Assembly (NCBI RefSeq): GCF_007992435.1
Contig: NZ_BKAG01000015.1
Location: forward strand, 62,001 to 126,000
DNA: 64,000 nucleotides
From: Prosthecobacter gellanilyticus
GTDB lineage: Bacteria > Verrucomicrobiota > Verrucomicrobiia > Verrucomicrobiales > Verrucomicrobiaceae
Direction of reading: 5' to 3'
Position numbers and translations under genes: made by a program. The notes below the pieces were generated by a model. That model worked only from the letters and a program-made list of their open reading frames with translations, did no database searches and was not told where the DNA came from. This document shows, piece after piece, positions 1,084 through 23,530 of the stretch; within the stretch, counting starts at the first letter, position 1, and each line of letters begins with the position of its first letter.

Positions 1084-1137
1084 GAGTGGGGTCTTTATGA
1101 AACGACAGCACCATGGCCTCCACGAATGAAAAGGCTG

Positions 1138-2876: not shown

Positions 2877-2997
2877 GGACAATCAGAGGAATGAACTGCT
2901 TATGATTGCACCTTCATTCCGCCAAATGACAGCTTTTTCATTCATTCGAAGCCAAATGGCGGGCCTCGTCCGCGTTCCCGCAGCAGACTAACATTCT

Positions 2998-5076: not shown

Positions 5077-5092
5077 TCCGCGCGCAGGCAGA

Positions 5093-6010: not shown

Positions 6011-6094
6011 GACGGGGGTGCAACAAGAGCAGCATCACTGAACGTGAAAAGACGGGAATTTTTGCTTCGAGTTGGACTCTCAGCCGGGACGCTT

Positions 6095-6613
6095 ATGAAA
6101 CACCTCATCCCCACCCTGCTGTTCATCGCCACCACGGCTCTGGCCGCGCCTCCGGAAGATTTCACCGTCAAATCTGCCACGGACAAGAGCAGTTTCACCC
6201 TCAAGGACGCACGTGGGAAGTTTGTGGCGATTCATTTCCTGCTCAAGACCGAGTGTCCGCTGTGCCTGCGCCACACGCGCGACTACATGACAAAGGCCTC
6301 CACCCTGCCCAATGTGGTCCAGGTCTTTTTGAAGCCTGACACTGACAAGGAGATCGAGGCCTGGGCCACCAAGCTGCCTGCGGAGGAGCTGGCCAAGCAA
6401 CCCATCTACCGCGATCCGAACGCGAAGCTGGCCAAGGCCTTTGACATTCCGGATGGCTATCAGTTTCACGGACAGGTTGTTCACTATCCAGCGACCGTCT
6501 TGATCGGACCCGATGGCAAGGAGGTGTTCCGCCATGTGGGCAAGAGCAACAGCGACCGACTCTCCTTCGAAGCTCTGAGCGCAAAGGTGGCTGAGCTGGC
6601 TCCCAAATCTTGA
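6095..6613 (+). CDS. Exported thioredoxin-fold (redoxin/AhpC-TSA-like) protein
   Basis: A 172-residue protein beginning MKHLIPTLLFIATTALAAPP, a clear signal peptide, so it acts in the periplasm. The reading frame is open far upstream, but the region before 6095 is antisense to the hydrolase gene and lacks coding character, so the ATG before the signal peptide is the start. The mature part reads FTLKDARGKFVAIHFL, then CPLC (residues 53-56) in the place of the thioredoxin/peroxiredoxin active site, then PATVLIGPDGKEVFRHVG, the cis-Pro strand of the fold. The CxxC suggests a thiol-disulfide reductase or peroxiredoxin-like role. The partner is not evident from the neighbours. Confidence 0.75.
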   Translation: MKHLIPTLLFIATTALAAPPEDFTVKSATDKSSFTLKDARGKFVAIHFLLKTECPLCLRHTRDYMTKASTLPNVVQVFLKPDTDKEIEAWATKLPAEELAKQPIYRDPNAKLAKAFDIPDGYQFHGQVVHYPATVLIGPDGKEVFRHVGKSNSDRLSFEALSAKVAELAPKS

Positions 6614-6679
6614 TGCCAGCGGGCGAGTGGCTTTGATTGACAGCGCAACTCCGCACGATGAGGGACGGCATGTTCACCC

Positions 6680-7351
6680 ATGCGCACCCGTGTCCTCCAG
6701 CAGGAGCTGCTCGAAACCTATCCCGATGATCATCCGGACGCCATCACGGGGCGCGAAGATCTGCTGCTGGTCAATGCGGTGATGGGAAATCACCGCTGGA
6801 TGGAGAGCATGCTGCGGCAGCACTACCAGCCCGGCTGGAAGGTCACGGAGATCGGCGCGGGTGATGGGGCGCTTTCACGCCGGTTCGTGGAGGCAGGCAT
6901 CTGCGAGGCATCGTGCTTGCATGCTTTCGATCTGGCTGGCCAGCCCGCCAGCTGGCCGCGTGAGGCGGTGTGGACACAGGGGGACCTGTTTCAGCAGCCG
7001 CTGCCGGACAGCGAGGTGCTGATCGCGAATCTCTTTCTTCATCACTTCACTGATGAACAGCTTCGGGAGATCGGCAGGCGCGTCCCGCCGAGGACGCAGA
7101 TCATCCTGGCAGCCGAGCCTGAGCGACGCTGGATGCACACGGTGATGGGGTGCTTCTTCAGCTGGCTGGCGGAGCTTCACCCCATCACGCAGTTTGACAT
7201 GCAGGTGAGCATACGCGCCGGCTTCAGGGATGATGAGCTGCCCCGCAGCCTGGGGCTGGATGAGCGGGACTGGCAGTGGCAGTGCAAGGCCACACCACTG
7301 GGAGGTTATCGTCTCATGGCCGTCCGCCGCCTAACCAAAAGCATTACTTAG
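6680..7351 (+). CDS. Class I SAM-dependent methyltransferase
   Basis: A 223-residue soluble protein with no signal peptide. Motif I is VTEIGAGDGALSRRF (EIGAGDG at 57-63), which binds S-adenosylmethionine. An acidic residue follows in LHAFDLAG, then GDLFQQPLP, the motif IV region VLIANLFLHHF and the post-motif stretch IILAAEPERRW. This is the Rossmann-like class I fold. The LFLHHF motif and the loss of a conserved C-terminal substrate domain resemble small-molecule or quinone/polyketide methyltransferases found in planctomycetes and verrucomicrobia. No biosynthetic genes lie beside it here, so the substrate is unassigned. It is 66 bases downstream of the redoxin gene and may be co-transcribed. 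Confidence 0.78.
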   Translation: MRTRVLQQELLETYPDDHPDAITGREDLLLVNAVMGNHRWMESMLRQHYQPGWKVTEIGAGDGALSRRFVEAGICEASCLHAFDLAGQPASWPREAVWTQGDLFQQPLPDSEVLIANLFLHHFTDEQLREIGRRVPPRTQIILAAEPERRWMHTVMGCFFSWLAELHPITQFDMQVSIRAGFRDDELPRSLGLDERDWQWQCKATPLGGYRLMAVRRLTKSIT

Positions 7352-7463
7352 ACGCGACAGCTTCAGGGGGGGATTCCCGAAGGCGGGGTCACAGGCGTGA
7401 CAAGATTCACATGATGTGCGCCACCGCATGAACGATCCGGCCAAAGCGCACGTTCATGAGATC

Positions 7464-8321
7464 ATGATGAACCGCCGCGCCCTCCTGAGCACAGCCACCA
7501 CCGCCGCCGTCGCCACCACCATGTCTCCCCGCATCACAAGCGCGGGCCAGTTCACCGGCAAGATCAGGAAGTCTCTCAAGTGGGGCATGGCGCAGAAGGC
7601 AGCCCAGGGCATGAGTTTGACGGAAGCTTTCAAAAAGCTGCGAACCTGCGGCTATGAGGGCATTGAACCCAGCCTGATCGGCCATGTGACAGAGGAGAAT
7701 GCCGCGGAGTGGATCACGGCGAGCAAGGAGAGCGGCCTGATCATCGATGGCACTGTGGGCGGACGCGCGGAGGGCCTGGAGGCAGGCATCGACCTCACGA
7801 AGAAACTCGGTGGAGACTCCATGCTGGTCGTGCTGGCGTATCCGGCAGACCAACCGCTCGGGCAGACCTGGAAGGAGTCCGTGGCGCGCATGAAAGCCGC
7901 CGCGCCACACGCGGAGAAGCAGGGCATCAAGATGCTCATCGAGAACGTCTGGAACACCTTTCTCATCAGCGCCTATGACATGGCCCGTTTCATTGACGAA
8001 GTCGGCAGTCCCTGGGTCGGTGTGCATCTGGACATTGGCAACCAGATGCGCTGGGGCATCGCGGAGCACTGGGTGGAGGTGCTGGGCAAACGCAGCGGCA
8101 AGCTGGATGTGAAGGAGTACCATCTGGACAAGGCGATGAAGGAAGGCATGCGCAAAGGCTTCGACACACCGCTCGGAGAAGGCAGCATCAACTGGCCCGC
8201 TGTGCGCGCTGAGCTGGCGAAGATCAACTTCACCGGCTGGGCTGCCGCCGAGGTCAAGGCAGGAGACTGGGACTATCTCGCCGACGTGGCACGCCGCATG
8301 GACAAGGTGCTGGACCTTTGA
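7464..8321 (+). CDS. Tat-exported sugar phosphate isomerase/epimerase-like TIM-barrel protein
   Basis: A 285-residue protein of the xylose isomerase-like TIM-barrel family. The N-terminus MMNRRALLSTATTAAVATT is a twin-arginine-like signal, which fixes the start at 7464 (or the ATG at 7467) rather than the earlier ATG at 7416. Barrel strands carry the usual metal-ligand positions: YEGIEPSLIG, MLIENVWN, VGVHLDIGN, LDVKEYHLD and AAEVKAGDWDY. Homologues isomerise or epimerise keto-sugars; many verrucomicrobial copies are exported and have no known substrate. A second family member lies at 49294-50271 in this window. The gene is convergent with the broken protease gene, 62 bases away. Confidence 0.82.
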   Translation: MMNRRALLSTATTAAVATTMSPRITSAGQFTGKIRKSLKWGMAQKAAQGMSLTEAFKKLRTCGYEGIEPSLIGHVTEENAAEWITASKESGLIIDGTVGGRAEGLEAGIDLTKKLGGDSMLVVLAYPADQPLGQTWKESVARMKAAAPHAEKQGIKMLIENVWNTFLISAYDMARFIDEVGSPWVGVHLDIGNQMRWGIAEHWVEVLGKRSGKLDVKEYHLDKAMKEGMRKGFDTPLGEGSINWPAVRAELAKINFTGWAAAEVKAGDWDYLADVARRMDKVLDL

Positions 8322-8383
8322 GTTGGGTTGTTCTCGGTTCGCTGCTCCCGGTTTTATCATTCCAATGCTTCCGGGCACTTTCC

Positions 8384-11300
8384 TCAAGGCACCTCGACTC
8401 TGAGTCGCAGAAACTTCGCCCCGCCCCCCGTCATGGCGGGAACGAGACGCACGGTCACCGTTTCCGTCACACCGTCGCCGGTCGGCACCACGCTGAGCAC
8501 TTCGACCTCCGCTCCCGCAGGCTGCCAGGTGGCCAGCGTGCTGGAGGTCTCCAGATGATACTGCACGCCGGATGGATTCGAGATCAGGCGGTGATAGCTC
8601 AACGTCAGGTGCCGCTGCCCTGTGCTGCCGTCCGTCTGCACGCCCGTCTGGGGCAGCATGCTGAGGCCGGACATGCCCGGGGCATGGAAGGCATACTGCA
8701 GAAGCCCGCCCACGCCGTTCCCATCCGTGTCTGACTCAGGATCTGCCAGATGCAGGATGCTCCACTGCTCGCTGCGTGTGTTCGGTGGCACGGCGTTGTC
8801 GCTGGCGGAGATCGTGAAACTGGTCACACCATTCGTTAGGCCACTGACGTTGTGCGTCCAGGCGGCAAACGCATTGGCAGAGGAGACACCACTGCCATTG
8901 ACAGAAACCGACGAGACACCGCTGGGGTCCGTGCCGCTGCCCTGCAGCGTCAGATGGTCCATCAGCACCACGCCGCCGCTTCCCGGTGTCAGCAGCAGAT
9001 CCGGAGGAGTGGCATCTTGCGTGGAGCGCTGCGGCTCAGACCAGACGCCTGTGAGGCCGGCGCTGCGGGACCGCACACGGTAATGATAGATCTGCCCGTC
9101 CGTCAGACCGCTGTAACCCCGCTGCGTGTCCGTGACGAAGCCTGTGGAGACCGCGTCGCTGAAATTGCTCAGCGACGCCTTTTGCAATTCGTACTCATAG
9201 CCCGCACCCAGGGAGTTCCACGTGATCGTGTTGCTGGTGCCGCCGGTGTAAAGAGGCTCGGCAGCCAGGACCACATCATTCACGGCCACGATGTCCAGCG
9301 GAGATGAAAGGCCTCCCAGGGCCGGATTGGAGGTGTGCGCAGCTTTCAGCCAGGCATCTGTGGCCACAGTTTGCACAGTCACACCGCCGCTCCAGGACCC
9401 ATGGCTGAAGGTGCCACTCAGCGCCGGAGTCATGGGCAGCGCCGAAACGGCGCGGGTGAAGCGCAGATTGGGCACCGTATTATGGGAAGAGCCTGGCGGC
9501 GAGGTGCCTGCCCACGTCAGGGGATCGCCATAGAAGCTGTCTGAGCGAAGCGCCAGCGTGCGGTCCTGGGTGGTGATGGTGCTGCGCACGGTGCCATCAC
9601 TTGAGAAGTCGTTGTTGTCGAAACTGATGTCGACCATCAGGTTGCTCGTGCCGTTGTAGTCAAAGGGCGTGACGAAGGTGATGGTGTTCCAGCCGAGCGT
9701 GGAGATGGACACATTACCGCTGAAGACCGTGGTCCAGCCGCTGCTTTCCCAGTTACGATCCGTGACCGGGTAATACGTGCGCGTGGTGTGCTTCAGCCGG
9801 ATGGTGAAGTCTTTGAGCGTCTGCCCGGGCAGCTTCGTCACGTCCAGCGCCAGCGAGACGAGCCCGCCCGCAGCCCCTACCTCCGCAGGAGTGTAGATGC
9901 TCTGCATGCGAGCGTCATGGTAGTGGCAGGCCAGAGGATAAAACCACCCATAGGTTCCCGTGCCCGTGGTGGTGGGCACCGGCTGCGCGCAGGCAGAGAG
10001 GGACACCTGGCCGGTGAAATTGGGGAGCTCATTGTCCCAAACGTCATGCGCGGTGACACGGCTGACAAAGCTGGTGCCGCGCGCAGCCACCTCCGGCACA
10101 CTGGACCAGGTGAAGTGGTGCAGATCACCCACCGGAGCCACCGTGAAGCTCCAGACGGGTCCGGAGCGCGTCTGGGCACCGAGGTGTGAGATCACCTTCC
10201 AGTAGTACGTCACTCCCGGCTCCAGCCTGGGCAGCACCAGTGCTGGAGATGTCACGGTGCCGATCAGCTCCACTGGCACCACTTCGGTGCCGAAAAGCAC
10301 CTCATAACTCTGCGGCACTCCACCGGTGGCAGGATGGTAGCTCCACGCCAGATCACTCTCCGGATGAGTGGGTGAGTTCAGGTGCGCGGGGGAAGGATTT
10401 TGCGGGGCCGCAGGCTGCTCATCATCCGCCACCGTCATGCCGAGCTGGCCTGAGGAATAGCCTGCCGCGCTCGCGGTGACGATGACCGTCTGGTCACCGT
10501 CGACCAAGGCATCATCCACCATCGTCAGGTCAAAGCTGGCCGAGCTCGTGCCTGCCGCCATCACCAGCGTCGCCGGCACCTGCAGTTCCGTGGTGTCACT
10601 GGAGACCAGGGTGACCGTCAGCGGACTGACCAGCGTGCCTGGCACCGTGACCACACCTCCCGGCACCGTGCCCACGCTCTCCAGAGTGGGTGAGATCAGC
10701 GCGACGGAAAGCTGCCGGGATTCATTGTCCAGCACCTGGGTGCTGGCATTCGCCGCAGGCCAGCCAGTCACAGTGGCCGTGACCGTCACGCTCTGCGGCC
10801 CATCCAAAAGTGTGTCTTCCGGCATCGTCAGCGTGAAGAAGGCCTGCGTCTGGCCCTGAGGGATCGTCACCGTGGCCGGCACCACCAGCTCCGTGACATC
10901 ATTGGAACTGAGGTTGATCGTGATGGGCACCCCTGCGGCGGCAGGCAGGCTGACACGCGCTTGATTGGAGATGGCAGCACCACCCTCCGTCACGCTGGCA
11001 GGCAGCGTCAGCGTCATGTTCGTCGTCTCATTGTCATTCACACGAACCGTGGCGCTGGAGCCCGGCCAGGTGGACGCGCTTGCGGTCAGGGTCACGGTCT
11101 GGGTCCCGTCGATCCGCGTGTCGTTGATGGGCAGGACAGTGGAAAAGTTCACCTCGGTCTGCCCGGCCAGAATCGTGACCGTGGTGGGAAACTGCACCTC
11201 CTCGCCCGGCCGGTCAGAGGTCAGTGTGATCACCAGGTTGGAGGTCGGCGCCGGTGCCACCGTGACGGATGACGATCCCGGCGCCACACCTTCCGTCATC

Positions 11301-12769
11301 GTGGCCGGCACCAGCAGACGCAGCTGCTTGTCAGGCACGGCACTCAGCTCGATGTCATCAATGTTCCAGCCTGACTGCGGATAGGCATCCGAGGTGGTCA
11401 CCTCATGCTTCCAGCGGATCCACATCTGGCTCTGCCCGTCTGTCAGAGAGGCCAGGTTATGCTCCACAAACGTCCACGCACTGTCACGCGGCGTGCTGAT
11501 GTTATTCTGCCAGGCCACATTCCAGGTGGACCCGTTCGTGGAGACCTCCACGCTGGTGACCACCCACGGCTGGAAGTCGGCGTTCAGCCAGCGCTGGTAG
11601 CGCAGCTTCGCTCCATGTTTTCCGCTGATGCTGAAAGGTCCCGCGAACAAATATTGCGGATTGCTGCTGGCCACGGCGTAGTCGCCGTTCAGGTTGATGC
11701 CGAAGACCTTGGTGCCCGTGGCTCCCGAGGTCGGATCTGGATTGCCAAAGCTCTGCCCGCCCTGGCCGGTCGGCGTGCCATGAGCCCACTCACCTCCGCG
11801 TATCCAGCCCGGGTCCGTGTCCAGGTTCGTGCTAAAAACCGGCGGCGCGTTCACCTCCAGGTATTGCATGCGTGTCTGCACACGATTGGAGGACGTGCTG
11901 GTCAAGGTCAGCGTGGCGACATGCGTGGCGGCCAGCAGCAGATTCGCACTGCTGTTGAGCGTCACCGTGACCTGCGCGTTCGCACCGGCCGCCAGCGTGC
12001 CGCTGGTGGCTGAGAGGGTGACCCAGGTGCGGTTGGAGCCCAGTGTCCAGGGCCGCGGGACATTGCTGTTGTTCGTCAGCGTGAGGATCTGCGCCGCCGG
12101 CGTGAAGGGGCCGCCCACAGGCCCGGCCGCGCTCAGGTGATTCGTCGGCGTGACCAGGATGTCATTGCTGGCCAGCATGGCGTTGTAAACGTTCAGGCGG
12201 CCTCCCGTCACACATTTGCCGGTCAGGGAAGCCAGCGGGTTCACGGTGTTCATCACCAGCTCGCGTAACTGCAAGTGTGTCAAAGCTGGCTTGTAGCTCT
12301 TCAACAGGGCGCAAGCGCCTGTCACGTACGGTGCCGCCATGGAGGTGCCGTCTTTAGAGCCATAGGTGCCGCCGGGAAGCGTGCTGTAGATCTCATTTCC
12401 AGGAGCTGCCAGATCCACCTTGGTGGCGCCAAAGTTGGAGAAGGAGGCGAGGCCGTCCGTGCGCGTCGTGGCGGTCACGGAGAGGATGTTCACGCTGTCA
12501 TACGCGGCGGGATACGCAGGATACTGGTCCACATCCAGCGAGTTGTTCCCGGACGCTGCCACAAACAGGATGCCCTGCTCATGCGCCTCGTCGATGGCAT
12601 CCTTCATCGCCTGGGTGTAGGTCGTGCCCGTGTAGGAGTTCGAGGTCATCGTCACCCCCAGGTCCGTCGCGTAAGATATCGCCTCCGCGCCATCAGACTC
12701 AAAGCCATTGCCGCTGGAGTCGAGGAACTTCAGGCCTAACAAAGAGATCTGCCAGCACACACCGCCCAC
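8384..12769 (-). pseudogene. C-terminal fragment of a broken subtilisin-like (S8) multidomain exoprotease
   Basis: An intact frame of 1461 codons that begins inside a peptidase S8 domain. The oxyanion Asn (FVAASGNNS) and the nucleophile motif GTSMAAPYVTGACALL are present in the first 170 residues, but the Asp and HGTH regions are absent. The remainder is a long adhesive tail: a BACON-like Ig domain (about 205-310), a jelly-roll segment, three Calx-beta-like repeats (EGGAAISNQARVSL style, about 500-790), fibronectin III modules and the verrucomicrobial C-terminal domain ending AKFLRLRVEVP. The missing N-terminal part is in another frame at 12736-13419. Reading upstream of 12769 in this frame gives GAGGGNNSTGVGGVCW, the stretch that normally follows HGTHVAGT. 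The intact ancestor would be one cell-surface or secreted protease. An assembly error is the main alternative. Confidence 0.72.
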
Positions 12770-13419
12770 GCCGGTGCTGTTGTTGCCGCCGCCTGCGCCG
12801 TCATGATGTGATCCGGCTCCACCACCAGCACATGTTCCTCCAGCTTGGAAAGGCGCGAGATCGCACGCGGCACCGTGTCCGTCTTCGGCTCTGCAAAAGC
12901 CACCAGCCAGAGTCCGGAGGCCGGCATCCGCTTCCGCACGCTGGCGCCACCATCTCCGAGGACCTTCAGCAGTTCCGCCTCGGGCATTTTCGGGTTCCGC
13001 AGCTTCACCATCACATGATCACCCACCATCGCGTTTTGCCTGACCAGGCGGTCTCCCTGCGGCGTGCGCACGATCTCATCCTCCACCCGCAGCACGGGAT
13101 ACTTGAACGACTCGTCCCGCACCAGGCGCACGCGGCGAAGCAGCTTCTCCCCGGACGCCGTCTTGACCTCCGTCTGCTGGCTGGCCAGGACCTCGGCTTT
13201 CGCGAACTTGTCCACGATCTCACGCCCCTCGGAGGGCAGGGCTGACTTTTGGGCGGACATGGACGCCGACATGACTCTGGGCACCGGTGACACCTGGGAA
13301 ACAGACAACCTTTCAGCGGCTGCCAGCGGCACTCGACCGCCCTCTCCCCGTCCCATGAGCCATCCCAGCAGCGCGGCGAGCGTCGCCAGCCCGATCAAGC
13401 CATGGAACAGGCGTTTCAT
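12736..13419 (-). pseudogene. N-terminal fragment (signal and propeptide) of the broken S8 exoprotease
   Basis: A 227-codon frame encoding MKRLFHGLIGLATLAALLGWLMG (membrane signal), a basic/Ala-rich linker and an inhibitor_I9/fervidolysin-like propeptide ending SKLEEHVLVVEPDHIM. In intact relatives this leads into a short loop and then the catalytic Asp strand. Here it runs 20 more residues of unrelated sequence and stops at 12736. The reading frame shifts relative to the downstream peptidase fragment, with which it overlaps by 34 bases. No Asp (D-T/S-G) or His (HGTH) motif exists in either frame near the junction. I infer a deletion of roughly 100-150 codons plus a frameshift. The two pieces together would otherwise form one gene at 8384-13419. 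Confidence 0.7.
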
Positions 13420-13722
13420 TAACGTGGAGGGGAATCACGGCGGGGGGGCCGTGGTAGTCAGACAAACGGGGGTGTGGTTTGTTGAAGCTGTTTTACACCC
13501 GAAGCCCCCTCCCCGGCAATGGCAAACCCTCAAAACCAGTGGCTTACGGCGGCCCCGCCTGCGTTTGAGGTGGGTCTGAGGCTGGCGTGAATTAGGACTG
13601 GGGGATTCCTGGCCTCTCGCCGACAAATAGCCCGGATCGATCGGGTTCCCGGTGCGTGGCGTTTTTCCGAGCCATGAAAACTGTCAAGGTTTTGCACACT
13701 GGCCCCGTTTCATTTCATCTCC
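13420..13722. other. Gene-free spacer upstream of the broken protease
   Basis: About 300 bases with no credible coding frame. It lies between the start of the protease propeptide fragment (13419) and the stop of the exported protein gene at 13723, so it should hold the protease promoter. I see no strong terminator hairpin and no clear promoter boxes. Confidence 0.4.
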
Positions 13723-14712
13723 TCAAGGCGAGGAATGGGCCTCCAAGTTTCGTGAGCCTGTCTTTGGATTATAGTAGCCTTCTACCTCTACAAAGTAATC
13801 ACCAAAGGCAATCATTTCGACGTCGACCCGCGCGTAAGTATCGTCGTCAAAATGCACGAAATATGATCGCCTAGTAGAATCAACCCATTGAGGCCGTGCA
13901 ATGGCTTGGTCCATGTCCACTATATCGCTTAGCGCGTAACCAACCGATGGAGCTTCAAAGTCAAGATTTCCGGCTCGCTGCTGAATCTTGCCGGAAACGG
14001 CACGAACTTCAAAGCGCCAAGAGAACCGACCGTCGGCTGTTTTGCTCTCTGCACTTTTACAGGATAACCATATTTTGTGGTTTGCCCCGTGATCTTGGTC
14101 AAGCGCAACCTCGATTGGCTCTCCAGTTCGTTTCAACTGCCGGGGCTTGGCCTTCAAATGTACCAGAGCTTCGCTAGGTCCGGGCTTGTAAAGGTAGAAG
14201 ACAATCGGCCTAGAAGGATCAGGTTCGTGAATTCCATCGCCGACACCTGCGACATAACTAAATCCACGTTCTGAAAACATCCCGCTTTTTTGCCCCGGGA
14301 ATAGGTGGATAAACCCCGGCCTATTGACACTAACGAACAAACGTATTCCCTTCGATTGCAGAGTAAAGTTGCCCGCATCATCGGTCTTTGTCGCTACCTT
14401 GGTGGTACTACCCAGCGTAGCAGTCGCCGACCCCGCAACAGTTGCATTCGCCACAGGGGTGCCATGCTGATCAATGACTCGCCCATAAAATGTAATCGGC
14501 GTCGCAAAAGCTACCGCCATGCGCACGTTGGAGGGCAATTCGGAGCGAGGGGACGATGGCTTGTTGGGCGACGGGGACACCAACTCGGCAGGCGGTCTTA
14601 CCGGTATAGCGACATCATTTTCGCTGGCAGCGAGAGGTGCTGGCTTGGGGCCAACCCAATACAGCAAAGAAGCAATTGCGATGAGCGCTAAAGCAATGAG
14701 AGCCTTTTTCAT
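13723..14712 (-). CDS. Exported protein with a carboxypeptidase-regulatory-like domain
   Basis: A 329-residue protein with an N-terminal hydrophobic anchor (MKKALIALALIAIASLLYWVG), a Pro/Ser-rich linker (about 25-62) and a carboxypeptidase regulatory-like beta-sandwich (about 72-150: FYGRVIDQHGTPVANATVAG followed by TKTDDAGNFTL). The second half matches nothing I recognise. It contains FSWRFEVRAVSGKIQQRAG and YFVEVEGYYNPKTG and looks beta-rich. It starts four bases after the stop of the giant gene at 14717, so the two are almost certainly one transcript and may act together at the cell surface. Base composition looks less GC-rich than the flanking genes, as in its partner. No enzymatic motif is visible. 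Confidence 0.7.
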   Translation of the reverse strand: MKKALIALALIAIASLLYWVGPKPAPLAASENDVAIPVRPPAELVSPSPNKPSSPRSELPSNVRMAVAFATPITFYGRVIDQHGTPVANATVAGSATATLGSTTKVATKTDDAGNFTLQSKGIRLFVSVNRPGFIHLFPGQKSGMFSERGFSYVAGVGDGIHEPDPSRPIVFYLYKPGPSEALVHLKAKPRQLKRTGEPIEVALDQDHGANHKIWLSCKSAESKTADGRFSWRFEVRAVSGKIQQRAGNLDFEAPSVGYALSDIVDMDQAIARPQWVDSTRRSYFVHFDDDTYARVDVEMIAFGDYFVEVEGYYNPKTGSRNLEAHSSP

Positions 14713-14716
14713 AAAA

Positions 14717-17700
14717 TCAATTGGGAACAGCCATTATGCCAAACTGCTTGAGCAGCCTTGCGTAGACGCGAGAAGTCAGTTGGATCGAGTAGACCCATTC
14801 CGCGCTATGTTCATCACCAAAACTATAAATGTCCATCGGCTCTGAATAGGCGACGCTCCCCGCCGTAAAGTACGTGTTGCCAGCAGGCTTTGAGCGAGTT
14901 TGAACGATATAGGCCATTGCTTCCGCCAATTTGTTTACTCGTCGTCCACCTGTGAGTTCAGCGTTGAGCGGTTCTCCGGGGGAGTCTATAATTCTGTACT
15001 GCAAGTTATGCCACATCCTGTTACCAGCAGCTGGCATATTCGGCGGTGCCACTATAGACGCCCATACACTGTCTCCCAAATAAGGAAACTCAGGTAGATA
15101 TGACCAACTATTGGAGGTAAGAACTTCCGGTTTATTGATCGTGTGGTTGAATTCCCACGCTCCCATGGCGAAGTCCTCCGTTAGAAAGAAATTGATCGCG
15201 GTCGTCGCCATTGGATTGAAAACACTACGCAACCCAAGGCTGTTGGTCTCAGTGTCGCTAGCAGTATCAGGTGTGGAACGGTCTCCGAACTCTCGGATGG
15301 TTGTTCCATAGGCCATGTGGGCCATAGCTGCATTGAACATGGCATATCTTGACACGTTGGACATACCCTCTCTGAAAGCAGAGCCTGATACCACATTACC
15401 CATGCTGTGAGCCATCAAACACTTGGTATAGTCTGTTGAAAGGGAGTTAACGTAGTCCGCAAGAGCTTTGCCAGAGAGCCAGGCGCGGTATTCGCTATCG
15501 TTATAAGTGAGACGTCCGTTTGTGGGATTCATCCCCGCAAATGGATCAGTCTCTGCGCTAAAAGTAGGCCATCGAAAGGCTGCAAACCGTCCCTTAAACC
15601 CTTGGTGCCAAAGTCTTTTGAACGTTGTTTGGCCCCAAGTTTGAGTTTCATCATACTCCATTCGCCAGCCGTGGACGTGAACAATATAAGTCTTGGTTTC
15701 ATCAGGATCACGATCCGGAGGGAAATCACCAGGATCCGCCCTGGAGGTCAACGATGGCTGAAGGTCGTCTCCGGTCACCCATGAATCGGGAACATCGTCC
15801 GGCTCTGCGTAAGGTTCACAGACTCTGGCACGCTCGAACATTCTTCGCACATCCATGACCCTAATCCAGGGACCCGGGACGACAATCTCCGGGTTGGAGT
15901 CTATCTTGACAACGGTGCACAACTTCGCTTGTCCCTCTACACAGCCCTCAAATAGAAAGCATCGCTTATTCGCCGATTGAGTGAGGGTGCTTTGCCAGTA
16001 TGAGGCTGGTAGATAGACAGTCTGCTCTCCCGCCACATCTGCGATTGAATGGTAAAAATCTCCTGTTACTTGCTCATTAGCTTTCTGAGGGTTGCTCAAG
16101 TAATCCAGCCCTCCGTTCGGATCGGCAGCTTTGTACATTCTAATACGAGGGGAACTCCCTCCTTCCCATTTAAACCCGATCTTCGCCTCGCCAGATGCGG
16201 CTTTTTGCAATACATCCGAAGGCAAGGTGAGATGGATTCTTGTAAAATCTTCCAAGTCTCGAACCCCGTCAATTGTGCCAAGTGTCGGGGAGTTCCGCCA
16301 GTCAGGCCATAGAGGCACCATTGCTTCGTTTTCGCGCATGGCATCCTCAATATCCTCATGAAGCGTGTTGGGATCGTCGTCGTTGTTGACCCAAAATCTA
16401 AATGGCTTTTCCTGGGAGGCGTACTCGCCGCTATTGATCACCCCATCGCGATCAGCATCCACAGCGAGGTCCGCCATCAGTCGGTTTGCACGGGTGAAGA
16501 TTGTGCTTCCCGGCACGTCGGTTGCATCGCAGCTGTAGACGGCGCTATCTTGGCCAGGCTTCAGCTTAACAAATTCATAGGTAAATGAATACTCCCCGCT
16601 TGGAAGTGTTTTCCTCGCCGTCACCGCCACCACCTCATCATCATAGTCAGCCGCATTGGTGCCCTCCGGCAGCTCATAACTCAAGCGCCACTTGGTGATC
16701 AGGCCGGACGCCGTGGCGTCGCCTTTGGAGCTTGTGGACTCCGCCGCAAACTGGGCCAGCTCCACACGCTCCCATTCCCCCCAGTCCTGCTGTCCAAGAT
16801 CGGTCAGCATACCTGAGTAGATTTGCCCCGGCGTGATCGGGTCCACGTATTCATAGCTGGCGCTTGTGGATCTCGACCCAGATATAAGTGTTGTCTTGCC
16901 ATCGCCCCCTGTTTGAGGAGGCTGGAAGGCCGTTGCGGTCTGTGTTTGCGAGGAGGTGGAAGGGCTCCAGTCAATTCCTGGCTCATCCCAGATCCAGCTG
17001 ATCGAGTCCAGCTCAGGACTGTAGTTGTCTGATTCGCTCACCGTGATCACCGGGGGAGAACTGCTGGATTTCGTCTCTGTGTACCTGTACGAATGTCCCG
17101 TGCTATTGATCGGGCCCGCTGGACCTTCTTCGGATGAATAGGTATTGGAGAACATGCTCTGGGTTTTTGGCTGCCCCGTTGCACGCGGAGCCGTGCTGAC
17201 CGAGGTGCCAAAGGCACTGTAGACCGTGCTGGTTTGAGCATCGTACTCCGTGACCAACCCGCTGGCGGATGTGTTGCCCGTCATCGTTGGCCATAGGACT
17301 GGATTTGTCATTCGATGCTCGGCGGAGGAGTGATGCTGGCGGGAATAACTCGTCGTGCTGGACGAAACCATCGTTGCCTCGGTCACGTCGTCCTTGCTGT
17401 TTTCGGTCTTGCTGACCGTCCACTGCTCGGATTCTTGCTCTTCGATCTTCCGGGCGGCATAGCGTCCGACAGGCGGGTCCTGGAAATAAAATCCGCTGAG
17501 TGAGATGGGATTGGCCTCGGCGAATCCCCTGACCGATGATCTGTAGGCCACAATCTTGGGAGCTTGCGGGAACGGCCGGTTCACCGTGCCCAGAGAGGGC
17601 AGAGTGGGCAGTGATCCAGGGTTCGTTGGATTGGGGGTGACAATGACACCACCACCGCTGTTCTCCACCTTGTAGGGCACACTCAGCGTGGCGCTGCCAG

Positions 17701-20700
17701 CAGCGCTGTTGATCATTATGGCGCGTGGTCCCAGCTCGGTGGGTGCCTTGACATGAAACACCACGTTTCCGGCACCATTCGTCATCAGATCCAGCTCACT
17801 CACCCAGGGAGCCCCAGTAGTGGTCGCGCGCACCTGGCCCGAGCCTCCTGCTGAAATGTGCACCAACACCGCCCTTTGGCCGATCCGCGCATTGACCGTC
17901 ACGCGGCTTCTCAGTTCCTGCCCCGGGCCGGTCACTTGCCCGCCTCCGGAAACCAGCTTGAACTTCAGCACAGGCTTGCTGGCACTGGAGAAGATGTCCG
18001 TCCCCTCTCTCGCCTCCTCGACATCCGAGAATCCATCCCCGTCAAAATCCAAATTTTCGATGTATAGTTTGTTAGCCTCTTTCGGATTTTTGGTATTGCG
18101 GAACTCGTCCAGATTGCAGACACCATCGTGATCCGGGTCAATTTTTGAGAACATGTTCCACTGCTGCTGCGTGATGTGGGGAGTTGCCACGTAAACCGCA
18201 GGAAACGGCTTCACCATGCCCCGGGCATCTTTCGCTGAACGAAGATCGGCTGCCACCTGCGCCGGCAGCAGGGCGAAAGGTGTGTCCCGATGGTATTCGT
18301 AATGCAGCGGGGAGACATCGGCATCCAATGCACTATACTTGTTCAATGCATACTGAGTTTCCCATCCGTCGTCCATGCCGTCTCCATCGGAATCGGGTTG
18401 AAGCCCCGGACCCGGTGGAGGAGGTCGGGTTACGGAGGTGCTGAAAGTGACCTTGATAGTGGGCTTGAGGGAAGCCGTAACGGTGGTCGTGAGAGCCAGA
18501 GTAGCCGCCGTGTTGGGGATGTGAGGAGCCTTCAACTGGATCACGGCCCGTCCGGAGGAATCTGTGACAACCTCCAGCGTCTTGAGTTTCCACGCATCCG
18601 GGGAGACACTCGTCCCGGTGGCAAGCAGCACATGATTGTTGTTCAGGCTGGTAGTGACGGCCAGTCTCAGACCTGCTTTGACCCCACCAAGGCTGCGCGC
18701 CTCCACCACAAGCGGTTGAGCGAGCTGCTTGTGCAGATGCACCGACTGGCTGTTCCCGCTGATAACATGCAGGGTGAAAGCGGGATACTTGGAGGCATCA
18801 CGAGAGTTCGTGCCTGCGGCCACTTCCTCCGCATCCGTGAAGCTGTCTCCATCGGAATCACGACTTCCTGTCGGCGCATAATCCGCCACACCCGGATTTA
18901 AGTGCAGACGCCATTCGTCCTTGTTCATCAGCCCATCGTGGTCGGGATCAATCCGTTTCAGCATCGTCCACAGATGATACTCGATGAACTCAGCGCGCCA
19001 GGTGGCCCGCCTGGTCTCCCACACCGTGGTCAACGGGTTGGGCGGCATACCGAGGGTTATGGAAGGTTTCGGAATCAGCAGCGGATACTCATTCACCAAA
19101 TTGTTCTGCGCGTTTGACTGGGTCAAGGCAGACAAGTTCAGTCTCTGCTGCAGAGTCGCCACAATGCTTTGGCCACTGTTTTCCAGTCTGCTAAGCTCCA
19201 ATCTTTCCGGAGGGCTGAGAGTCAGCCCCGAGACATAGCCAGCCACACCCTCCCGCGCCTTGGCAAGTGAGGCATCCATGGGATCCCGCCAGTCAAGATC
19301 ATGCTTATGGTAACCTGCCTCCCAGTCATTGGGCGCTTCATCGCCATCCACGTCGCCGGTCAACGGCAGCCGGGAGCGCAAGTTCGCGAGAATCACCTGG
19401 GATGCAGCGTCGGGTGCAGGAACAATTCCAGCCAGGGGCGGAGCCGCAGGAAGCTGGGTCACCCCTTTGCTACGCAACCAGCTCACGTAGCCTGAAGGAA
19501 GATGGTCAAAACCAGGTACGTGGGAGGTTGTGTTCGGATTCGAGGTGGAAGGGGGATTCAGGTAGACGATGGCAAAGAAGGACGCGGCGTTCGGGCGAAC
19601 GCCCGTCGAAGGATCTCTGACTTCATGGCGGGCAAGGCGGAGGAGACCGTCGTCCATCCACAGCCTGTAGTTCTCCGCACGTTTGCGCCAAGTCCACTCC
19701 AGCTTAGGATCTGACAATGAAGCTGGGGCCGTCTTGATGGAGGTTCTGCTGTAGGTGCCGGTGGCGTATTGGGTTGTAGGCCCGCTGGTGGTAAGAAAGG
19801 GGTCGGTGAAGAAACCCGCGGGATCGGCTATCGGCCGCCCCCAGAAACCGCGAAGTTCTTCAACGGTCAACACACCGTCCTCATCAGGGTCCTCAAAGGC
19901 ATCACTAAACTTGTATTTGTTGAGTCGGCCTGGATAAAGCTTTGACCAGTTTTCCTCAGTGATGTTGGTCAGTCCGTCAAAGTCCACGTCGTGATTGTCG
20001 GCCAGGGTGGTCGAGGGGTTGCCGCGAAGATCAGTCCCATTGAGGTACTCTTGAAAGTTGCTCACTCCGTCCGCATCGAGATCACCATCCCGTGTCACTA
20101 CCAACGGCTTGTACATGTCATCAACACGATCAGGAATGCCGTTGTGATTCGCGTCGGTCAAGTCAGCAAAGAAGTGTGTCCGGTTCGTGTACCACATCCC
20201 CGAGATGCTTTTCAAAGTCACATCGAATACCGGCTCATCAGCGTCGTTGCTCGTGATGTGGATGGCGGCGGTGACACTCGTTCCTGCCGACGCAGTTGCC
20301 TTGAAATTCACGGTCAAGGTCGTCTCTGCTCCTGCTTCCAGGGAGGTGGTGGACAGGGGACCGACAGTAAACTGAGTCTTGTTTGCTCCGTCCAAAGTTA
20401 CACTCAAAGTGAGATCCTCGGTGCCGGTGTTGTGGATGGTGAACGTCTTTTTAAGATCACTTTTGTCCGCCTTCATGCTGATGCTGGGGAAGGTGGCGGT
20501 CGCCCCGTCCTGGATGAAGAAATTAGAGCCAGCAATTCCTCCCAAAGATTCCTCCACAGCTATCTCGGGTCCCGGGACAGGCTGAGAACCTCCTGCGGCT
20601 GATCCACCTCCAGCGTTCTCAATCGGGTTAGGTGTCAGCGGATCGGTGAAGTAGGCATAAATCTCTTCATAATCCGTCAATCCATCACCGTCCGTATCCA

Positions 20701-22510
20701 CATTCAGCGGGTCTGTTGCCTGATAGATTTCCTCACCATCACGAAGCCCATCACTGTCACTGTCATTTGAAGCAGGATTTGTGCCGCGTGCCAGTTCGTC
20801 GGCATCGCTGAGTGAGTCGTTGTCCAGGTCGTAAGGAAATTCATCCTCAGCATCGACAACGCCATCGCCATCACTGTCTGACGGAGCCTCGAGATCATCG
20901 TTCACCGCATTGTTGTTGTGGTCATTCCAGAGGGAAGCGTCCTGAGGATGTGTATCGAGCTCATCGGCATAACCGTCTCCGTCGCTGTCTGTGATGATGA
21001 CTTCACTCTCGTCGTTGATGCCATTTCCGTTGTGGTCATTCCAAAGAAGAGAGTCGGAAGGATGAGTGTCAAAGGCGTTTGGATGACCATCACCATCATC
21101 ATCCAGATAATTGGCCTCGACGCTGTCGTTATAGCCATTGTGGTTCCAGTCTTCCCATAGATACATATTGCCCGGGTCGGAGTCGTTCTCGTTAGCATAG
21201 CCGTCTCCATCGCCATCCTGGGTGGTCTGCTCCTGATCATCGTTGATACCGTTGCGGTTCCAGTCGTTCCAGAGGCTGGAGTCGCCCGGATCTGAGTCGA
21301 TGGTGTTGTAGTAGCCATCCCCATCCCCGTCCTGCTGAACCTCCAGTTCATCATTGATGCCGTTACGGTTCCAGTCATTCCAAAGGGAACTGTTGTCTGG
21401 ATCAGAATCATTTTCGTTAGGCATCAGGTCGTTGTCGCGGTCAGGATTGGTGGACTCCTGGCTGTCATTGGTACCGTTGCGGTTCCAGTCCTCCCACAGA
21501 TTGAAATCATTGGGGTCGGAATCCAGGTAGTCTGGAACCGGGTCGCCATCGGCATTGTTACCCTCGGTGCTGTCGTTGCAACCATTGTTATTCCAGTCTT
21601 CCCAAAGGCCACTGTTGAAGGGATGAGAGTCCGTGTTGTTAGGCACGTTGTCCCCGTCATCATCGCCCAGGTTGGCCTCGGTGTCGTCATTGATGCCATT
21701 GTTATTCCAATCACACCACAAGACGTTGGAGTTGGGGTGGGAGTCCTGAAGATTGCTCACGCCATCGCCATCCCAGTCTTCATCAGGGTCGTTGATGCCA
21801 TTGTAGTTCCAGTCGTTGTAGAGCGCCGGATCGCCAGGATGGGAATCGGTGTCATTGGAGACACCATCGCCATCCACATCACTGTTCTGGTTTTCGGCAT
21901 CGTCATTAATGCCGTTGCCATTGGCATCATTCCAGACGCCGGGATTAGAGGGATCGCTGTCCTGGGAATCTGGCACGCCGTCACCATCGCTGTCCGGATC
22001 GTTTTCGGGAGAGGTTGGGTCGGGGTCCACGGGATCAGGGATGCCATCGCCATCATGATCGTAGGGCGTCTCACCTGGGCCATCCTCATCCTCGTCCACG
22101 GAGCCGTTACCATACTGTTCGTTATAATCGGAGATGCCGTCCCCATCACTGTCAGTGGTGGTGGGGTCGGACCCTGTCTGGTTGACCTCGTCGGCGTCTG
22201 TGATGCCGTCTCCGTCCGAGTCTGGATTGTAGGGGTCGCTTCCCGCCGCCGCTTCATCGGCATCGGAAAGACCGTCTCCATCTGAGTCTCCGGTCGGCGG
22301 TGGGGTCTCGGGCGGAGGATCCCCAGGAGGCGGGTTTCCGTCATCATAGCCGGAATCCATGATCCCGTCTCCATCAGTATCCACCTCAATCCAGACCGCG
22401 TGCGAATTCGGCGGAAAGGGCATGAGAATGAGCTGGGCGATAAGCAGCCCATGCAGGAAGTAGGCGCGGCGAGACCAGGAACGGCACCAAGGAAGAAGGC
22501 GTGAACGCAT
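14717..22510 (-). CDS. Giant surface protein: Ca-binding TSP3-type repeats, Trp-rich repeats and C-terminal lipase-like domain
   Basis: A single 2597-codon frame. A signal-like N-terminus (about 1-38) is followed by thrombospondin type 3 motifs (DTDGDGIMD, DSDGDGLSD; about 40-185), ten Trp-rich repeats of about 37 residues (188-553), more DxDGDG motifs, and an ASH/choice-of-anchor-D Ig domain (about 655-770). Further on are EF-hand-like loops (DPDHDGLMNKDEW, DPDHDGVCNLDEF), each before an Ig-like module (about 1235-1345 and 1510-1620), then a Ser/Thr-rich stretch (about 1680-1870). The C-terminal 325 residues look like an alpha/beta hydrolase: IVHVHGW oxyanion loop, AHSMGN with nucleophile Ser2369, and a candidate His2568 in GDEHSAEW. 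It probably binds many Ca2+ ions and displays or secretes an esterase/lipase. A small partner gene follows four bases downstream. The hydrolase call is by motif only. Confidence 0.8.
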   Translation of the reverse strand: MRSRLLPWCRSWSRRAYFLHGLLIAQLILMPFPPNSHAVWIEVDTDGDGIMDSGYDDGNPPPGDPPPETPPPTGDSDGDGLSDADEAAAGSDPYNPDSDGDGITDADEVNQTGSDPTTTDSDGDGISDYNEQYGNGSVDEDEDGPGETPYDHDGDGIPDPVDPDPTSPENDPDSDGDGVPDSQDSDPSNPGVWNDANGNGINDDAENQNSDVDGDGVSNDTDSHPGDPALYNDWNYNGINDPDEDWDGDGVSNLQDSHPNSNVLWCDWNNNGINDDTEANLGDDDGDNVPNNTDSHPFNSGLWEDWNNNGCNDSTEGNNADGDPVPDYLDSDPNDFNLWEDWNRNGTNDSQESTNPDRDNDLMPNENDSDPDNSSLWNDWNRNGINDELEVQQDGDGDGYYNTIDSDPGDSSLWNDWNRNGINDDQEQTTQDGDGDGYANENDSDPGNMYLWEDWNHNGYNDSVEANYLDDDGDGHPNAFDTHPSDSLLWNDHNGNGINDESEVIITDSDGDGYADELDTHPQDASLWNDHNNNAVNDDLEAPSDSDGDGVVDAEDEFPYDLDNDSLSDADELARGTNPASNDSDSDGLRDGEEIYQATDPLNVDTDGDGLTDYEEIYAYFTDPLTPNPIENAGGGSAAGGSQPVPGPEIAVEESLGGIAGSNFFIQDGATATFPSISMKADKSDLKKTFTIHNTGTEDLTLSVTLDGANKTQFTVGPLSTTSLEAGAETTLTVNFKATASAGTSVTAAIHITSNDADEPVFDVTLKSISGMWYTNRTHFFADLTDANHNGIPDRVDDMYKPLVVTRDGDLDADGVSNFQEYLNGTDLRGNPSTTLADNHDVDFDGLTNITEENWSKLYPGRLNKYKFSDAFEDPDEDGVLTVEELRGFWGRPIADPAGFFTDPFLTTSGPTTQYATGTYSRTSIKTAPASLSDPKLEWTWRKRAENYRLWMDDGLLRLARHEVRDPSTGVRPNAASFFAIVYLNPPSTSNPNTTSHVPGFDHLPSGYVSWLRSKGVTQLPAAPPLAGIVPAPDAASQVILANLRSRLPLTGDVDGDEAPNDWEAGYHKHDLDWRDPMDASLAKAREGVAGYVSGLTLSPPERLELSRLENSGQSIVATLQQRLNLSALTQSNAQNNLVNEYPLLIPKPSITLGMPPNPLTTVWETRRATWRAEFIEYHLWTMLKRIDPDHDGLMNKDEWRLHLNPGVADYAPTGSRDSDGDSFTDAEEVAAGTNSRDASKYPAFTLHVISGNSQSVHLHKQLAQPLVVEARSLGGVKAGLRLAVTTSLNNNHVLLATGTSVSPDAWKLKTLEVVTDSSGRAVIQLKAPHIPNTAATLALTTTVTASLKPTIKVTFSTSVTRPPPPGPGLQPDSDGDGMDDGWETQYALNKYSALDADVSPLHYEYHRDTPFALLPAQVAADLRSAKDARGMVKPFPAVYVATPHITQQQWNMFSKIDPDHDGVCNLDEFRNTKNPKEANKLYIENLDFDGDGFSDVEEAREGTDIFSSASKPVLKFKLVSGGGQVTGPGQELRSRVTVNARIGQRAVLVHISAGGSGQVRATTTGAPWVSELDLMTNGAGNVVFHVKAPTELGPRAIMINSAAGSATLSVPYKVENSGGGVIVTPNPTNPGSLPTLPSLGTVNRPFPQAPKIVAYRSSVRGFAEANPISLSGFYFQDPPVGRYAARKIEEQESEQWTVSKTENSKDDVTEATMVSSSTTSYSRQHHSSAEHRMTNPVLWPTMTGNTSASGLVTEYDAQTSTVYSAFGTSVSTAPRATGQPKTQSMFSNTYSSEEGPAGPINSTGHSYRYTETKSSSSPPVITVSESDNYSPELDSISWIWDEPGIDWSPSTSSQTQTATAFQPPQTGGDGKTTLISGSRSTSASYEYVDPITPGQIYSGMLTDLGQQDWGEWERVELAQFAAESTSSKGDATASGLITKWRLSYELPEGTNAADYDDEVVAVTARKTLPSGEYSFTYEFVKLKPGQDSAVYSCDATDVPGSTIFTRANRLMADLAVDADRDGVINSGEYASQEKPFRFWVNNDDDPNTLHEDIEDAMRENEAMVPLWPDWRNSPTLGTIDGVRDLEDFTRIHLTLPSDVLQKAASGEAKIGFKWEGGSSPRIRMYKAADPNGGLDYLSNPQKANEQVTGDFYHSIADVAGEQTVYLPASYWQSTLTQSANKRCFLFEGCVEGQAKLCTVVKIDSNPEIVVPGPWIRVMDVRRMFERARVCEPYAEPDDVPDSWVTGDDLQPSLTSRADPGDFPPDRDPDETKTYIVHVHGWRMEYDETQTWGQTTFKRLWHQGFKGRFAAFRWPTFSAETDPFAGMNPTNGRLTYNDSEYRAWLSGKALADYVNSLSTDYTKCLMAHSMGNVVSGSAFREGMSNVSRYAMFNAAMAHMAYGTTIREFGDRSTPDTASDTETNSLGLRSVFNPMATTAINFFLTEDFAMGAWEFNHTINKPEVLTSNSWSYLPEFPYLGDSVWASIVAPPNMPAAGNRMWHNLQYRIIDSPGEPLNAELTGGRRVNKLAEAMAYIVQTRSKPAGNTYFTAGSVAYSEPMDIYSFGDEHSAEWVYSIQLTSRVYARLLKQFGIMAVPN
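20840..21945 (-). repeat. Ten tandem copies of a Trp/Asn/Asp-rich repeat inside the giant protein
   Basis: The coding sequence contains about ten consecutive repeats of 34-38 residues (about 111 bases) covering residues 188-553. Each copy opens with a motif like LWNDWNRNGINDD, then a variable acidic stretch, then DGDGDGYxNxxDSDP and a small linker. Copies differ mainly at the variable stretch and in the aromatic position (Trp, His, Ala, Tyr). Each repeat therefore combines a Trp-containing Asn-rich loop with one thrombospondin-type DxDGDG calcium loop. Neighbouring copies are similar enough at the DNA level to allow recombination and copy-number change. Confidence 0.85.
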
Positions 22511-22920: not shown

Positions 22921-23400
22921 GGAGCCGTTGACGGTTCGTCCTTCGCAGAATGCTTCGGAGAATGCATTGTTTACTGTGGTTGACGATTGTTTACAGTAGT
23001 TTTCCAGAAGGGCCGATCCGGCTGGATCCGAGTGGATCCGACCTGGGGCGGTGGAGGGAGCCGTTTGCAGTGGTTTGCGATTGTTTGCGATTGTTTACCG
23101 TGGTTTGTCAGAAGAGTCGATCCGGCTGGATCCGAGCGGATCCGACCTGGGGCAGTTGGAGGGAGCCGTTTACGGTTCATCCTTCGCAGAAGGCTTCGGA
23201 GAATGCATTGTTTACCGTGGTTTGTCAGAAGGGCGATCCGGCTCAATCCGACCAGATCCGACCTGGGGGCGTGGTGGAGGCCGTTTACGGTTCGATCTTC
23301 GCCGAATGCTTCGGATAATGCCTTGTTTGCAGGGGTTGACGGTTGTTGACCGTGGTTCTCCAGGAGGGCAATCCGGCTGAATCCGAGTGGATCCAGGTTG
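22921..23400. repeat. Non-coding tandem array of about 4 units, itself built from iterated 10-base words
   Basis: Four imperfect units begin with GGAGCCGTT or a close variant at 22921, 23057, 23162 and 23277 (lengths about 136, 105, 115 and 125). A full unit reads CCTTCGCAGAATGCTTCGGA, then a T/G-rich part, then three GATCCG words and ACCTGGGG. Inside units the sequence repeats with a 10-base period: GTTTGCGATT twice at about 23074-23094, followed by GTTTACCGTG; and GATCCGGCTG, GATCCGAGTG, GATCCGACCT at 23015-23044. Unit lengths are not multiples of three and the possible frames differ from copy to copy, so it is not coding. It lies between the kinase gene and the giant gene, both reading leftward. 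There are no equal spacers, so it is not a CRISPR array. Confidence 0.8.
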
Positions 23401-23530
23401 GTTTGGTTCGCGGGAGGCCCCTCATGCTGGTGAACCAGCTTACGCCCCAGATGATCCAAGTGGATCAAGGCGGATCCAGCTCAAGCGCACTCGTTGGACA
23501 GCGCAACGCAACGCAGCGCCCCACTTCACC

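Follow-up and report, generated by a model that had tools for sequence, protein, structure and literature searches.

A giant calcium-repeat protein with a C-terminal lipase-type hydrolase and an anchored partner: a proposed toxin/immunity pair in Verrucomicrobiota

Introduction

What is a lipase-type hydrolase doing at the end of a giant, apparently exported calcium-repeat protein, with a second and probably anchored protein encoded right behind it? The two genes lie in a stretch of 64,000 nucleotides from Prosthecobacter gellanilyticus (contig NZ_BKAG01000015.1, positions 62,001 to 126,000), which we refer to as the window. An initial annotation of this DNA pictured a secreted or surface esterase held on a calcium-stiffened stalk. 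We have examined both proteins and their relatives in Verrucomicrobiota, and we argue here that a toxin with its immunity protein is the likelier answer.

Results

The giant gene, encoding P0001, is on the minus strand at 14717 to 22510 and specifies 2,597 amino acids from its ATG. An ORF check returned exactly the single frame, strand, and length given in the initial annotation. Residues 1 to 38 (22397 to 22510, minus strand) resemble a signal peptide, with a hydrophobic stretch from residue 16 (mean hydropathy of 1.36 over 19 residues) and an end point set by eye. Export of P0001 is supported by this signal-like start, as judged from hydropathy. Residues 44 to 640 (20591 to 22381, minus strand) hold TSP3-type calcium loops and ten Trp repeats, as defined by Pfam and motif counts. 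The whole protein has 26 DxDxDG calcium loops, whereas 1,000 shuffles of the same protein gave a mean of 0.23 and a maximum of 3, and the Trp repeat (LWxDWNxNGxND-like) occurs at a spacing of approximately 38 residues. Pfam matched TSP3_bac repeats, an Ig-like domain, and a C-terminal DUF900. The thrombospondin-type loops and Trp-rich repeat that had been described from the sequence were therefore recovered. A further claim, that EF-hand-like loops are combined with Ig-like modules, held only for the latter: an Ig-like domain is found at residues 682 to 761 (20228 to 20467, minus strand; PF22544, 27.7 bits with a cut-off of 25.5), but the EF-hand_1 match falls below the Pfam cut-off.

Ahead of the tip is a Ser/Thr-rich linker, recognized by composition, at residues 1740 to 2003 (16502 to 17293, minus strand); residues 1740 to 2010 are 15% Ser and 13% Thr. 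It is followed by a domain with DADRDG and RDLEDF motifs at residues 2004 to 2233 (15812 to 16501, minus strand), which is conserved across the alignments of relatives (A2 and A4) and well predicted by AlphaFold2. Rhs, CDI, WXG/LXG, T6SS, and T7SS delivery domains were not among the Pfam and NCBIfam matches of P0001 at E values up to 1. Such domains were also absent among the families listed (25 of 26) for 22 full-length relatives. Judged by the domains tested, the pair falls outside the CDI, Rhs, T6SS, and T7SS delivery classes.

The hydrolase domain itself spans residues 2272 to 2593 (14732 to 15697, minus strand) and was delimited by Pfam DUF900, predicted fold, and structural matches. DUF900, an alpha/beta hydrolase family of unknown function, scored 24.6 bits on the C-terminal 348 amino acids and 20.6 bits on the whole of P0001, with a cut-off of 20.5, and is matched by 13 of the 22 full-length relatives at E values up to 0.01. 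DUF2235 (Tox-AB hydrolase 1) was absent among the matches of P0001 or its C terminus at E values up to 1. An AlphaFold2 model of residues 2004 to 2597 had a pLDDT of 87.0 and a pTM of 0.90. Its alignment was made of 48 sequences from the window and the relatives' loci; six relatives alone gave a useless model (pLDDT of 38.5). The best structural matches of the tip model were Bacillus lipase A structures (3qzu: Z score of 14.4, rmsd of 2.6, 162 aligned of 180, model residues 269 to 589), in a test that covered model residues 217 to 590 only and thus does not bear on the fold of the preceding domain. At E values up to 0.001, Foldseek alone returned only four matches, and their TM-scores across the two-domain model were low. 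When a six-row profile of the module was compared to PDB sequences, the only match was pancreatic lipase-related protein 2 (E value of 0.004).

The initial annotation had recognized the hydrolase from AHSMGN and a downstream His, and had named two findings that would speak against it: a C terminus that is not an alpha/beta hydrolase and a triad that cannot form. This check did not refute the assignment. AHSMGN is at residues 2367 to 2372 and the His is residue 2568, with the Ser and the His conserved in relatives. The confidently predicted fold is lipase-like. Geometry of the triad was checked by order only: S2369, D2446, and H2568 follow model strands 359 to 365, 434 to 439, and 550 to 555, which is the usual order. 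Among the 48 sequences, the nucleophile (codon 15404 to 15406, minus strand) is Ser in all, the acid (15173 to 15175, minus strand) is Asp in 32 and Glu in 16, and the His (14807 to 14809, minus strand) is conserved in 47, with one gap. The tip was assigned to the family by its score above the curated DUF900 cut-off, its predicted alpha/beta hydrolase fold, and its triad order. Sequence, predicted fold, and conserved triad agree in supporting a long, putatively exported calcium-repeat protein that ends in a hydrolase.

The partner gene, encoding the 329-amino-acid P0002, occupies 13723 to 14712 on the minus strand. Its start (14712) is separated from the P0001 stop (14717) by a 4-nt gap, as had been noted. 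From the ORF, hydropathy, and Pfam, P0002 appears to be anchored by its N terminus, where a hydrophobic segment (mean hydropathy of 2.1 over 19 residues) precedes a Pro-rich stretch. One region is weakly like a carboxypeptidase regulatory domain (27.9 bits, below the cut-off of 32.3), and the C-terminal end is NPKTGSRNLE. Members of the partner family appear to be exported and mostly membrane anchored; a profile of the family found only weak beta-sandwich matches in the PDB. The P. gellanilyticus genome has one hydrolase copy and one strong partner match, plus two weak ones at an E value of 0.003.

These features could also describe an exported lipase with a dedicated membrane-anchored foldase, in which the partner would aid folding of the tip after export and give no protection. 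A gene directly downstream, with an N-terminal anchor and then a Pro-rich stretch, fits that explanation. However, the lipase-chaperone family was not among the Pfam and NCBIfam matches of P0002 at E values up to 1.

A search for the same gene pair in other genomes, which the initial annotation had suggested, found it in Verrucomicrobiota relatives. In 45 of 50 hydrolase rows, the gene directly after the hydrolase belonged to the partner family (E value at most 6e-11); these include all 17 phylum-sample loci that had been chosen by their hydrolase. A partner gene in this position was one of our criteria for polymorphic toxins. Partner calls were made with a profile trained each time on the other folds of the data, and rows were counted only if there was room downstream of the hydrolase. 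The count leaves out L092 (same genome as L019), L114 (a possible assembly artefact, both contig ends carrying the same sequence), L126, L143, and L145 (without the hydrolase domain), L099, L106, L107, and L109 (under 500 nt downstream), and L123 (neither "full" nor "tail" as defined, but with its partner). Among the five rows without a direct partner, another gene intervenes in L102, with a partner-family ORF further on; L120 and L122 are first pieces of split genes, with the partner behind the second piece in L120 and a partner-family ORF beyond the second piece in L122; and L121 is a broken fragment. In the fifth, L119, an 870-amino-acid TSP3 protein follows the hydrolase instead. (The intervening gene of L102, at 2063 to 3013, looks transposase-like by eye.) In the same loci, 385 other ORFs of 250 to 500 amino acids gave 28 matches to the partner profile, of which 27 were further or separately known partner copies. 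The remaining one (L123, 268 amino acids, E value of 5e-8) is a hydrolase piece and probably a false match.

The two genes overlap by 4 nt (ATGA) in 24 of 54 rows (50 full and 4 tails), and many of the nonoverlapping rows were called from an upstream start codon. Hydrolase and partner distances were correlated over 40 pairs (r of 0.85, to which genome relatedness contributes), and the largest value in 2,000 permutations was 0.22. L102, L119, L121, L122, L120, L113, L026, L169, and L174 (broken, cut off, or interrupted) were omitted from that comparison. The hydrolase was more conserved than the partner in 92% of comparisons. Strict pairing and correlated distances also fit a foldase.

What a foldase does not predict is found in the relatives that have too many partners or too little enzyme. 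Arrays of two partners occur in L024, L096, and L174, and L105 has three; in L024, a third, decayed partner start comes after the two. (At L105, the three partner-family genes lie in a row at 10708 to 14417, behind one 2,696-amino-acid hydrolase protein.) In five loci, only the last 36 to 134 hydrolase codons are kept, together with an intact partner: L020 (G017), L021 (G049), the second cassette of L096 (G094), L124 (G165; on a short contig, with its upstream side poorly known), and L125 (G080). Orphan partner cassettes of this kind were another of our criteria for polymorphic toxins. In a tree of 70 partners, the five tail-only orphans were nested among paired ones, and well-supported branches forced at least four changes. 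The tree was built by a quick method and has several long branches; it omits L102, L119, L121, L122, and one L120 piece, and one was used of the near-identical L129 and L130.

The G017 orphan, the clearest of the five, could be compared to an intact locus, that of G107. The DNA that the two have in common sets in at the catalytic His motif, approximately 98 nt upstream of the hydrolase stop codon (the counterpart in the window is 14717 to 14815, minus strand), and extends across the partner with 79.6% identity; blastn found no other match between the stretches. The two partners are 81% identical, with a dN of 0.118, a dS of 0.864, and a ratio of 0.136. This pairwise omega of 0.14, along a path of which part may predate the enzyme loss, shows the signature expected of an orphan partner under purifying selection. 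G017 is a 99%-complete genome, and a search for the hydrolase module elsewhere in it gave no other match. Directly upstream of its orphan are a 323-amino-acid lipoprotein-like gene and a 3,004-amino-acid TSP3 giant with a different tip. In L096, a tandem duplication (68% identical) again spans the last approximately 95 nt of the hydrolase gene and the partner. In G049, a 95-bp segment beyond the partner repeats, at 96% identity, part of the beginning of the giant gene upstream, and another membrane-protein gene comes after it.

If the partner were a foldase, selection would not be expected to maintain it once its enzyme is lost, nor would two or three copies be expected behind a single enzyme. 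Both situations are found, and we consider the foldase explanation unlikely.

Some partner homologues have no hydrolase at all. Sixteen of them, and L029, had no hydrolase match beside them (the contig of L137 begins just upstream), and on the tree the sixteen require at least three separate changes. They could be orphan immunity genes of greater age, or their function may differ. Stand-alone homologues in L022, L023, L127, L128, L129, and L130 have a lipobox-like GCA(V/I)TPSR start and unrelated genes around them. In L025 (G039), a partner-family gene at 8602 to 10782 is seemingly interrupted, its start and remainder being approximately 1 kb apart.

A further criterion was one N-terminal part with different tips. 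In the relative G039, residues 1 to 416 are common to the hydrolase protein and its next large neighbor (42% identity, E value of 2e-87), after which the two diverge, one ending in this hydrolase and the other in Amidase_3, a peptidoglycan amidase. This arrangement was found in G039 and not for P0001 itself, and when we looked for tip replacement at the window's own locus, none was seen.

The G017 giant shares its tip with three other genes, in G213, in G013, and at a second G017 locus. In G013, the gene after it is related to the lipoprotein-like gene of G017 (25% identity, E value of 2e-6); at the second G017 locus, it is a different, 142-amino-acid one. For this tip, Pfam shows only TSP3 and a subthreshold dockerin stretch, NCBIfam has no family, and PDB matches are at chance level. 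A by-eye guess of a glycosidase was dropped, there being no supporting Pfam, NCBIfam, or PDB match. The end of the G049 giant has an HExxH stretch, with only subthreshold metallopeptidase matches. The domain ahead of the P0001 hydrolase aligns to two TSP3 proteins with PAD (protein-arginine deiminase) tips (E values of 1e-7 and 3e-4), in their PAD middle-domain region; one of these alignments overlaps a subthreshold PAD_M match (20.1 bits, cut-off of 24.8). The known targets of PAD are protein arginines. TSP3 proteins ending in PAD are encoded in L126 (3 to 3746) and L145 (3810 to 7205), each followed by a gene of another family. L126 also has, at 5714 to 6774, a 185-amino-acid ORF that by eye looks like a stand-alone toxin fragment and then a 167-amino-acid ORF, with no Pfam match at E values up to 0.01.

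These observations bear on two other explanations. One keeps the esterase of the initial annotation: a surface enzyme for nutrition or matrix on a calcium stalk, with the partner as an accessory anchoring or regulatory protein. The lipase fold, calcium repeats, and predicted export all suit it, and that much of the annotation, a hydrolase on a putatively exported calcium-repeat protein, was supported. However, a plain esterase leaves unexplained the partners in arrays, the tail-plus-partner orphans, and the exchange of tips on a shared N-terminal part, and we regard it as improbable. The other explanation is a toxin against protists or other eukaryotes, with the partner for self-protection. 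A lipase could act on any membrane, and PAD tips do occur on other TSP3 proteins, but an amidase tip on the same N-terminal part would act on peptidoglycan, and the retained orphan partners suggest attack by relatives. We therefore give it the smallest chance of the explanations considered, and a very slight one.

The initial annotation also described a separately acquired locus, marked by lower GC and a nearby repeat array. GC content is indeed lower, at 0.553 for the giant gene (0.508 for its last 594 codons) and 0.519 for the partner, compared to 0.617 for positions 1 to 13400 and 0.605 for 23531 to 64000. The repeat array is real (23090 to 23328, 2.1 copies of 115 bp), but it is uninformative about the locus because its family has 57 matches scattered over the whole genome, and an island argued from lower GC and the array was rejected. 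(The repeat family, taken from 22950 to 23480, is found in many contigs.) We found no empty site in six relatives around the heparinase-like orthologue (about 19 kb each); in these, 14 of 15 queried window genes, all but the heparinase-like one, had no match at E values up to 1e-8. A test for carriage on plasmids or phages gave no protein-level match among 72,556 plasmid records and 50,697 phage records, a set from which records close to this genome were possibly left out.

In the order samples, 45 of 288 genomes had a match to the hydrolase profile and 57 of 288 to the partner profile. Weak matches are counted in both figures, and several of them extend over no more than the general hydrolase core or a common regulatory-like domain. 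For the hydrolase profile in the phylum sample, the figure was 54 of 288 genomes. Within the genus, the module is in G000, G034, G152, and G169, and G017 has the tail only; it is therefore sporadic. Such patchy occurrence, together with the lower GC, is in keeping with an accessory locus, but no empty site was found and the repeat array is genome-wide. The nearest named record is a Verrucomicrobiaceae MAG, L019. Elsewhere in the window, a subtilase-type gene (8384 to 13419, minus strand) is apparently split, with two overlapping frames near 12.74 to 12.77 kb: a 1,461-amino-acid frame matches Peptidase_S8 only from profile position 75, and a 227-amino-acid signal-bearing frame is just upstream. 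This appears to be a frameshift or an assembly error.

Discussion

Relatives of this locus have a dedicated partner family, partner arrays, orphan copies, and exchange of tips, and therefore we favor a toxin/immunity module. P0001 would probably be an exported lipase-type toxin of the polymorphic kind and P0002 its anchored immunity protein, with an antibacterial role that we propose from sequence and a structural model. The giant would leave the cytoplasm via its signal-like start, and the calcium repeats might serve as a long carrier for the Ser-His-Asp alpha/beta hydrolase of lipase type predicted at its C terminus. At the envelope of a neighboring cell, the tip would hydrolyze an ester, most likely a membrane phospholipid. 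The partner, held outside the cytoplasm by its hydrophobic N terminus, would bind and neutralize the tip in the producer and its kin. Toxicity, substrate, neutralization, and delivery are all what we infer for this pair.

The exchangeable unit would be the tip plus its partner. When a new tip enters a locus with its own partner, the old enzyme may be lost while the old partner survives, retaining the last codons of the old gene that lead into the overlapping partner start. Tail-plus-partner cassettes could then be a readable record of tip replacement with protection retained.

Several observations count against a toxin/immunity module. P0001 has no known delivery domain, and its own locus shows neither exchange nor an empty site. 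The sixteen hydrolase-free partner homologues and L029, in which the role of the family may differ, also weigh on that side, as does L119.

A broader and more speculative possibility is a phylum-wide class of verrucomicrobial weapons. In it, the calcium-stiffened giant would itself be a contact-dependent delivery device that needs no known injector, and each interchangeable tip (this lipase, the amidase, PAD, the G017 tip, and others) would come with its own exported immunity protein. The D-x-D-R-D-G domain ahead of the tip, as a relative of the calcium-binding PAD middle domain, would be a calcium-gated switch. Taken together, these parts make a claim that we hold only tentatively and think is rather more likely wrong than right. 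If our interpretation of the pair is correct, then a hydrolase tip, ATGA, and an anchored partner with a C-terminal NPxxxxRNLE-like end would be a signature for mapping antagonism across Verrucomicrobiota. It would also become testable whether giant TSP3 calcium-repeat proteins are inert stalks or weapon carriers.

In the open-licence literature, we found no lipase effector/immunity family of this make-up, and the comparisons that can be drawn are to parts of it. LipA/Lif of Pseudomonas and Burkholderia is encoded by a lipase gene and then a gene for an anchored periplasmic foldase. P0001 and P0002 are similar in having a lipase-type gene and then an anchored-partner gene, but P0002 has no lipase-chaperone family match, and orphan partners and arrays are found here.

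Three toxin systems can also be compared. Tox-AB hydrolases 1 to 3 are alpha/beta hydrolases that form C-terminal polymorphic-toxin tips with immunity partners, and families 1 and 3 are proposed to act on lipids (PMC3482391). P0001 likewise has an alpha/beta hydrolase tip at its C terminus. However, it matches DUF900 and not DUF2235, its TSP3 carrier is without Rhs, FilH, or WXG, and by Pfam the partner family is unlike SUKH; a search of that paper's available text for thrombospondin, TSP, and deiminase found none of these terms. TslA of Staphylococcus aureus is a secreted type VII lipase toxin with a Ser-Asp-His triad, and its immunity protein, TilA, is a lipoprotein that is exported and whose family varies in copy number (PMC10730906). 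Our pair shares the lipase-type enzyme, the triad, and a predicted exported partner from a copy-variable family, but the TslA lipase domain is N-terminal and is delivered by the T7SS with two small helical partners, whereas that of P0001 is a C-terminal tip on a calcium-repeat carrier. In Vibrio cholerae T6SS clusters, a new effector/immunity module displaces the old effector, and the old immunity gene stays downstream, so that arrays form (PMC5361080). Partner genes are also retained here, and arrays are formed, but the proteins are calcium-repeat giants and the partner keeps beside it a short piece of the 3' end of the former enzyme gene. By analogy, then, the pair would work as these displaced-effector, lipase-toxin, and hydrolase-tip systems do (PMC5361080, PMC10730906, and PMC3482391).
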